Source of the DNA: Candidatus Ferrigenium bremense
GTDB taxonomy: Bacteria; Pseudomonadota; Gammaproteobacteria; Burkholderiales; Gallionellaceae
DNA: 64,000 nt
Assembly (NCBI GenBank): GCA_019449635.1
Contig: JAGRPI010000012.1
Span: 1 to 64,000, forward strand
Direction of reading: 5' to 3'
The notes beneath the pieces were generated by a model. The model saw only the letters and a program-made list of their open reading frames with translations, did not search any database and was not told the DNA's origin. Below, piece by piece: positions 55,883 to 57,556 of the stretch (position 1 is its first letter; the number at the start of each line of letters is the position of its first letter). A program made the position numbers and the translations under genes.

Positions 55883-57556
55883 TTACTGGTCGGCGACTGC
55901 TGATAGAAGTGTATTCTCATTGTGAAAGCTGTGGCAATTATCACAGCCGCTATTGATCCGGTTTTTTACTGGTTTATTGCCTACATGGCATTCACGGCAT
56001 TTCTCGATGGCAGGAATCGCCACATCCGAGCTTTTCTCGGACTTTGTCTTGTCATGGCATTCGGTGCATTTTGCCGTACTATGTTTGGCATGGGTAAAGC
56101 GTGAGTTACGCAGCCAATGGCTGGTTATGGACACAGGCGCAACCTTCCATGGGACATCCTTGTCATCGGCGACATGGATGATCTCGTGACACTCCCCGCA
56201 ACCGCCGTCCGGCTTAAACAGAGTCTCCGCATTTACATAGGCCTTGTGGTTGGCGCAGTCTAATGCCCGCTCAAGTTGATTCTTGCCAGCTCCAGCACCA
56301 GCCCCGCACGGAAGTTTTTCGCCCGCAGCCACTTTGCCGACTGTTGTTGTTGCGTAATATTCACGCAGAGCGACCATCAATTTTTGTTCTGAACCATGAG
56401 GTATTTGACGCTTTGATACAGGCGGTCTGAAATTTAATGCATGGCATCCGGACTGCTGACAATTTTTCTCCATGGAAATCGGTCTGAAACGAGCACCGGC
56501 CTTATCCAGTTGGTGGCAATCGCGGCATTCCAATACTGTGTCGCCTTCGGGGCTGGAAACACCTTCCTTGTCGAGGTGAACCTTATGCGAAAATTTAAGC
56601 CCTGATTTTTCGACGAGTCTGGTTCTTTCGCTCTGTGGAATACGTATTACATCACTGTCTTTGTGCCCTGTCTTGAAGGCCAGGCTGAATGCGGGATGAT
56701 CCTTGCTGAAATCGCGAATGTCTGGCAGCTTGGTTTTGTCGTTCTGCTTTTTGATCTTCCCATGACAGGCCGCACACTGTGCGTTCTGGGTCCCTTCCCT
56801 TACTTCGCCTCTATGTTCATGATGGCACTCACCACAACGCATATCTTTGAATACATTCGCGTGCAGCGTCTTGTCTGCAATATGCCTTGCCACGGTTTTG
56901 TGGCAGCTTTCACACGCTTTATCAGGCACTGCTTCAAACGGCTTCTGGTGGCACAGGTCACATTTCGCACTAATCAGCTGGTGTCCGCGAGACATCTCGC
57001 CTAACTGCCAGGATTTTTTAATCGATGCTTGTGAGTTGGCTGCCCATTTGGGGAGTGTCGGGCTTAATGTCGGCACCATGGGAAGTATTAAAAAGACCAG
57101 CGTAATTGCACCGGCCAGCCAGAGCGCAAGCCGGCTTTTCGATAAGCCAGTCCCCGCCAAGGTGACAGGCGCTTGTTTTACTGCAATATGCTCATGGTCG
57201 TCCGGTAACGGATGAACCATTTCAGCCGAAAGCACCAGGTCATAATCACCTGAGGGAGTTTCTGCTATAAGTTCATATGGCCCGACAAGGACATGTGTTC
57301 CCGGTGACAATCCGGCGCTCAACTCGGATGAGCCGTCGATAGTGATATCCGCGCCTTCTTCGGCCTCGATGATCAGTTTGCCTTCATCCGAGCGACGAAT
57401 CACTGCATGATGAAAATTGACTCTATGATCGAGAAGAAGAATTTTGCATCCGGCGGCACGCCCGATCTGAATGGCTTCGCCAGTGACCAACAGTTCCTTT
57501 CGGACAGGCTGGCCGCTTTGGTTGCGTGAAATCTGGATAAACAGGCAACGAATCAT
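55883..57556 (-). CDS. FHA domain - TM - multihaem (10-haem) cytochrome c fusion
   Basis: N-terminal FHA-like (IQIGRAAGCKILLLDHRVNFHHAVIRR), TM LALWLAGAITLVFLILPMV, then 9 CXXCH plus one CX4CH (CQQSGCH). Confidence 0.88.
   Translation of the reverse strand: MIRCLFIQISRNQSGQPVRKELLVTGEAIQIGRAAGCKILLLDHRVNFHHAVIRRSDEGKLIIEAEEGADITIDGSSELSAGLSPGTHVLVGPYELIAETPSGDYDLVLSAEMVHPLPDDHEHIAVKQAPVTLAGTGLSKSRLALWLAGAITLVFLILPMVPTLSPTLPKWAANSQASIKKSWQLGEMSRGHQLISAKCDLCHQKPFEAVPDKACESCHKTVARHIADKTLHANVFKDMRCGECHHEHRGEVREGTQNAQCAACHGKIKKQNDKTKLPDIRDFSKDHPAFSLAFKTGHKDSDVIRIPQSERTRLVEKSGLKFSHKVHLDKEGVSSPEGDTVLECRDCHQLDKAGARFRPISMEKNCQQSGCHALNFRPPVSKRQIPHGSEQKLMVALREYYATTTVGKVAAGEKLPCGAGAGAGKNQLERALDCANHKAYVNAETLFKPDGGCGECHEIIHVADDKDVPWKVAPVSITSHWLRNSRFTHAKHSTAKCTECHDKTKSEKSSDVAIPAIEKCRECHVGNKPVKNRINSGCDNCHSFHNENTLLSAVADQ

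Follow-up and report, generated by a model that had tools for sequence, protein, structure and literature searches.

A degenerate FHA domain fused to a decahaem cytochrome c in Gallionellaceae, and its proposed place in a three-gene inner-membrane electron-transfer module

The window analysed here, a 64,000-nucleotide stretch of contig JAGRPI010000012.1 of Candidatus Ferrigenium bremense, has Gallionella sp. and Ca. Ferrigenium MAGs as its nearest named relatives (78–85% identity in a contig search). Three genes of its reverse strand form a trio, encoding a cytosolic FAD/NAD(P)H oxidoreductase with two cyclic-nucleotide-binding (CNB) domains and a four-[4Fe-4S] domain, a predicted inner-membrane dihaem b-type protein (IMP), and a protein in which an FHA domain, a single TM helix, and a decahaem cytochrome c are joined (Table 1). 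An earlier note had proposed this last architecture, and our analysis bears it out, with the ten haem motifs exactly as listed there; the two partner genes, which on the present analysis decide the role of the protein, were left out of that account.

Table 1. Features of the window, with positions, strands, and the basis of each assignment
Feature	Position	Strand	Basis
FHA–TM–decahaem cytochrome c gene, 557 aa, third of trio	55883..57556	(-)	ATG start; ORF, Pfam, and motif count
Decahaem domain, residues 199–542, nine CXXCH and one CX4CH	55931..56962	(-)	Motif scan and alignment
Single TM helix, residues 143–161, N-in expected	57074..57130	(-)	Hydropathy and positive-inside rule
FHA domain, residues 20–100, degenerate phosphothreonine site	57257..57499	(-)	Pfam and profile against solved FHA domains
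Inner-membrane dihaem b-type protein (IMP), 5 TM predicted, 327 aa, second of trio	57563..58546	(-)	
Cytosolic FAD/NAD(P)H oxidoreductase with two CNB domains and four-[4Fe-4S] domain, 805 aa, first of trio	58521..60938	(-)	
16-Cys region, four [4Fe-4S] clusters, DmsB/FdnH-like	58566..59045	(-)	Pfam and alignment
Two CNB domains, approximate limits	59169..59816	(-)	PF00027, 3.9e-40
FAD/NAD(P)-binding oxidoreductase domain (thioredoxin-reductase/YpdA-like)	59994..60938	(-)	Pfam
Cytochrome c''/SHP-type monohaem c (DUF1924), divergent from trio, candidate acceptor in Gallionellaceae	61218..61637	(+)	
CHASE2-kinase	25565		
PP2C	28196		
Canonical FHA protein	29079-29942		
CHASE2-nucleotide cyclase	30053		
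PDEase_II-like protein	32498		
Kinase with CNB domain (kinase–CNB fusion)	41808-43229		

The haem motifs of the FHA-decahaem protein begin at residues 199 (CDLCH), 215 (CESCH), 241 (CGECH), 261 (CAACH), 344 (CRDCH), 366 (CQQSGCH), 453 (CGECH), 497 (CTECH), 520 (CRECH), and 538 (CDNCH). Both cysteines and the histidine of every motif are kept in 40/40 aligned homologues, so that none of the ten is a chance occurrence, with the sixth taking the CX4CH form in Gallionellaceae-like homologues (CX3CH in one) and the CXXCH form in more distant ones. The protein falls outside the MtrA/DmsE decahaem model, scoring 22.6 bits against NCBIfam TIGR03508 where the cut-off is 192.2. Open frames of ~600 aa with 24 haems, which matched residues ~160–250, were set aside as another cytochrome, probably the periplasmic one of PCC3. 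The TM helix is preceded by the sequence GLSKSR, with K140 and R141 present in at least 90% of relatives, and these basic residues on its N-terminal side lead us to expect an N-in/C-out topology, with the FHA domain on the cytoplasmic and the haems on the periplasmic side. The earlier note had reached the same cytoplasmic placement from the position of the FHA part ahead of the single helix, and hydropathy and the positive-inside rule support it.

Searched as a whole, the 557-residue protein gives a marginal match to the FHA model (Pfam PF00498, E = 1.1e-3, 19.8 bits, below the cut-off of 20.7), whilst the isolated N-terminus clears the cut-off at 21.6 bits and 26/26 homologous N-termini match the model (best E 5e-10). 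The family profile matches solved FHA domains in the PDB, with Rv1747 (4e-7) and GarA (7e-7) joined by OdhI, EmbR, and Rad53. The higher score of the whole protein against YscD_cpl (PF16697, E = 5e-7) suggested a YscD (type III secretion) identity; this was rejected because the fold modelled by PF16697 is itself FHA-like and true FHA domains are what the family profile matches, the rest of the protein being a cytochrome. An AlphaFold2 model of the FHA and TM regions, built on a shallow alignment of 4–5 near-identical sequences, was poor (pLDDT 56.5), with no Foldseek match at E <= 0.001. By these profile matches the N-terminal domain is an FHA domain by descent, and of the checks named in the earlier note, that of the FHA HMM score is passed by the N-terminus alone and by its homologues.

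Conservation of the binding residues gave a divided result. Gly32-Arg33 is found in 40/40 homologues and His50 in 38/40, whereas the phosphate-contacting Ser position is variable (N12/A7/S6/E5/Y3 and others) and the STNG motif lacks its peptide-binding Asn throughout (0/40). The second FHA protein of the window keeps the full set, GR..S..H..STNG, and provides an internal control. The FHA domains of GarA, OdhI, and Rv1747 resemble that of the trio in detectable homology (E 4e-7 to 5e-5) and in the GR and H motifs, however the trio domain has lost the phosphothreonine-binding Ser and Asn. With Ser in only 6/40 homologues and Asn in none, the domain does not appear to be a canonical phosphothreonine binder, and the phosphopeptide binding claimed for it earlier is not supported. 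The invariant Arg33 leaves room for residual phosphate binding, which may be weak or altered. Most likely, the domain serves for docking to the cytosolic or membrane subunit, independently of phosphothreonine.

The first protein of the trio carries an FAD domain matching Pyr_redox_3 (8e-33) and Pyr_redox_2 (4e-27), with a match to the YpdA family model (4e-37) that lies under the family cut-off. The ligand Glu and Arg are kept in the alignment of both CNB domains (FGEMGL..GR.R and GEMAL..R), and these domains perhaps bind a cyclic nucleotide. The 16 Fe-S cysteines, in four groups of the DmsB/FdnH type, are invariant in 37/37 homologues of this FAD subunit.

In the IMP, the motif WX3HX13H occurs twice (W128-X3-H132-X13-H146 and W301-X3-H305-X13-H319), with an SGXXG motif (S169–G173) between, and the four histidines are invariant in 39/39 homologues. 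This is the signature described for the IMPs of PCC3 and PCC4, where WX3HX13H lies on TM3 and TM5 and SGXXG on TM4, and where it is read as two b haems (PMC5566968). Weak Pfam matches among the homologues were to cytochrome b561 (30/39) and ferric reductase (5/39); a PDB profile search returned spurious matches alone, and an AlphaFold model, again from 4–5 near-identical sequences, was poor (pLDDT 44.4). From its listed GTG start, the gene would overlap the one upstream by 26 bases, and the true start is probably Met20 (58489), since relatives are invariant only from that residue.

Of 151 Gallionellaceae genomes, an identical set of 24 carries the FAD gene and the FHA-decahaem gene (hypergeometric 2e-28, phylogeny ignored), and the order FAD–IMP–FHA is kept wherever all three genes were called, including in other Pseudomonadota and on Sphingobium plasmids. 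Two genomes encode the FAD/Fe-S protein and the IMP as one fused ORF of 1118–1123 aa. Neighbourhood genes were called with a simple ORF script that overlooked some true genes where the strands overlap, and several of the loci compared are metagenome assemblies. One further stretch (L101, 210-3641) bears a second FAD–IMP pair, 76–84% identical to that of the window, with no FHA-decahaem gene called behind it on that stretch.

Beside the trio, the cytochrome c''/SHP-type protein matches PDB entries 1e8e (E 3e-26) and 1dw0 (E 4e-14), and in 15/24 of the trio-bearing Gallionellaceae genomes its gene adjoins the trio, with none seen next to the trio at the loci compared outside the family. The gene nirK is adjacent in the window and in two relatives. 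Another c''/SHP-type (DUF1924) gene lies in the window at 20451-20720, and a stand-alone PAS protein with the Cys-rich segment CPSLFQGTDCARDCEKSDHC (61750-62115), kept in several relatives, is encoded beside the c'' gene. Outside Gallionellaceae, the trio is often accompanied by a c554-type tetrahaem cytochrome and an HbpS-like protein with a lipobox-like N-terminus, and also by a ~620-aa putative β-barrel, present in many of these loci, and a ~1330-aa LVIVD-repeat decahaem cytochrome; the module of these four was seen in L081, L083, L085, L086, L088, L089, and L006. The ~620-aa protein, for which no Pfam match was found, is predicted to be an outer-membrane β-barrel, a call that, like those of topology, is made from sequence alone, and the four proteins together would form an apparently undescribed outer-membrane module. 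Among 399 Pseudomonadota genomes the LVIVD cytochrome occurs in 11, of which 10 are trio-positive (Fisher 1e-15, phylogeny ignored, with 7/10 from one family). Its association with the trio is not merely local synteny, as the two lie far apart in three genomes (G364, G499, G546). The same query that finds these 11 finds no LVIVD multihaem cytochrome in 151 Gallionellaceae genomes. A CpdA-like phosphoesterase gene follows the trio in several loci, which fits control by cyclic nucleotides.

One of the closest known systems is the inner-membrane side of PCC4 (He et al. 2017, PMC5566968, where further pairs of an IMP and a multihaem cytochrome are also described), which shares the IMP signature and a 10-haem cytochrome with the trio, and in subgroup II of which an Fe-S protein of Pfam 13247 stands beside the IMP or is fused with it (PMC5566968). 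A PCC4-like locus (L097), encoding a 4-haem cytochrome, a CNB–Fe-S protein, an IMP, and a 10-haem cytochrome, matches all three trio proteins at 24–27% identity; in contrast to it, the Fe-S subunit of the trio has in addition an FAD/NAD(P)H domain, and the trio decahaem an FHA domain. The joint lack of both domains in L097 would fit a docking role for the FHA domain, though as a single case, and a search for further PCC4-like IMPs in the class of G282, bearing on whether FHA tracks the FAD domain, found G282 itself alone. Unlike PCC4, the Gallionellaceae trio loci are without a porin, with no homologue of the β-barrel gene found in them. We rate the trio as a variant of the PCC4-type inner-membrane module. 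The NOX/ferric reductase (FRD) enzymes are alike in that a cytosolic NAD(P)H-FAD unit feeds a dihaem b protein that likewise has a pair of HX13H helices, a likeness echoed by the few weak Ferric_reduct matches of the IMP, however the trio flavoprotein is TrxR/YpdA-like, Fe-S clusters stand between, and the acceptor is a decahaem c rather than O2 or Fe(III). The Rhodobacter SHP/DHC/cytochrome b operon (PMC2909971) likewise leads from a membrane dihaem b through a multihaem c to an SHP/c''-type protein, but is quinol-fed, has a dihaem c in place of the FHA-decahaem, and is without an FAD/CNB/Fe-S subunit.

We propose that the three proteins form an inner-membrane complex that carries electrons from NAD(P)H to periplasmic multihaem cytochromes, with the FHA-decahaem protein as its trans-side subunit, a reading to which we give a probability of roughly 60%. 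NAD(P)H would be oxidised at the FAD domain of the cytosolic subunit, with electrons passing through its four [4Fe-4S] clusters to the five-TM IMP, whose two b haems, on the two HX13H helices, would move them across the membrane. The membrane-anchored decahaem would then collect the electrons in the periplasm and hand them on, in Gallionellaceae plausibly to the cytochrome c''/SHP-type protein or other periplasmic cytochromes, and in other Pseudomonadota to the tetrahaem cytochrome and then the predicted outer-membrane β-barrel/LVIVD-decahaem conduit. From the cytoplasm, the FHA domain would dock the decahaem to the cytosolic or membrane subunit. We infer the direction of flow, from NAD(P)H to the periplasm, from redox potentials and membrane polarity. 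Cyclic nucleotides perhaps control the complex, and appear better placed to do so than phosphorylation, since the ligand Glu and Arg survive in both CNB domains whereas the FHA domain has lost its ligand residues. Cyclic-nucleotide signalling genes of the window (30053-33259 and 41808-43229) lie less than 30 kb from the CNB-containing redox protein.

The earlier note suggested that the Ser/Thr kinases of the window could supply a phospho-signal; on this model, the FHA domain would recognise phosphothreonine and thereby switch the cytochrome. The two kinases, the PP2C, and the FHA protein invoked as its source are all real, and both the FHA homology and the invariant Arg33 speak for it. The binding Ser is variable, however, and the STNG Asn missing in 40/40 homologues, unlike in the canonical FHA protein of the window. 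The CHASE2 kinase at 25.6 kb, moreover, is found in 71/101 Gallionellaceae, being no commoner in trio-positive genomes (12/16) than in trio-negative ones (59/85), and its homologues in this sample generally lie on a different contig from the trio, so that it appears unlinked to the FHA-decahaem and its supposed role as signal source is unsupported. Taken together, a phosphothreonine switch appears very improbable.

Two further readings concern the direction and purpose of electron flow. The module could run inward, with the decahaem accepting electrons from periplasmic carriers that derive from Fe(II) and the IMP feeding the quinone pool or NAD(P)+. In favour of this are the iron-oxidising host family, the IMP signature shared with PCC3 and PCC4, where quinone exchange and electron uptake have been proposed for the related IMPs (He et al., PMC5566968), and the listing of a gene of this description in 27/87 iron-oxidising Gallionellaceae (PMC10734462). 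Against this, only 24/151 of the Gallionellaceae sampled carry the trio, which is also borne on Sphingobium plasmids. Sphingobium is not known to oxidise iron. Electrons flowing to NAD(P)+ would in addition have to climb in potential and move against the membrane potential, and we consider an inward module unlikely. Slightly less doubtful, though still rather unlikely, is a role in periplasmic NO or reactive-oxygen detoxification, with the trio reducing the adjacent SHP/cytochrome c'' by analogy with Rhodobacter, where SHP probably receives its electrons from a dihaem cytochrome b by way of a dihaem c (PMC2909971). The frequent c''/SHP-type neighbour in Gallionellaceae and the adjacent nirK are consistent with this, as are the SHP operons elsewhere with a membrane dihaem b and a dihaem c, and the NO dioxygenase activity reported for the SHP of R. 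sphaeroides (PMC2909971). In the window protein, however, the alignment places the cytochrome c'' His ligand where SHP has its Asn, and cytochrome c'' does not bind O2 (PMC2909971); the c'' neighbour is furthermore absent from the trio loci seen outside Gallionellaceae. Detoxification is compatible with, and not exclusive of, the NAD(P)H-to-periplasm module proposed here.

The FHA-decahaem fusion is already catalogued, uncharacterised, by Hoover et al. 2023, whose cluster 403, a 'Forkhead-associated protein' with 10 motifs in 27/87 FeOB genomes (PMC10734462, Table 1), agrees in annotation, haem number, and host family, and is almost certainly this gene. That record is a table entry, however, with the main text silent on partner genes, topology, and mechanism (PMC10734462). 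Literature searches on FHA with multihaem and LVIVD with multihaem combinations found nothing, and the papers searched made no mention of the trio with its NAD(P)H/CNB front end, of the degenerate FHA domain, or of the LVIVD association, although the supplement of He et al. may contain the locus. The boldest form of our proposal, which we put forward tentatively and hold to be rather improbable in its entirety, is a quinone-independent, cyclic-nucleotide-gated export of NAD(P)H electrons through one inner-membrane complex to periplasmic multihaems, continued outward in sphingomonads and other Pseudomonadota by an undescribed LVIVD-decahaem/β-barrel conduit, with a repurposed FHA domain docking or gating. 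Known extracellular electron transfer usually enters at the quinone pool (CymA-type). In a complex of the kind proposed here, periplasmic, and possibly extracellular, acceptors would draw directly on the NAD(P)H pool, whilst the tandem CNB domains would put electron flow under second-messenger control. The family also shows that an FHA domain has been retained in a redox protein after the loss of its phosphopeptide residues, and with the present proposal a gene recorded in 27/87 iron-oxidising Gallionellaceae gains a testable function.
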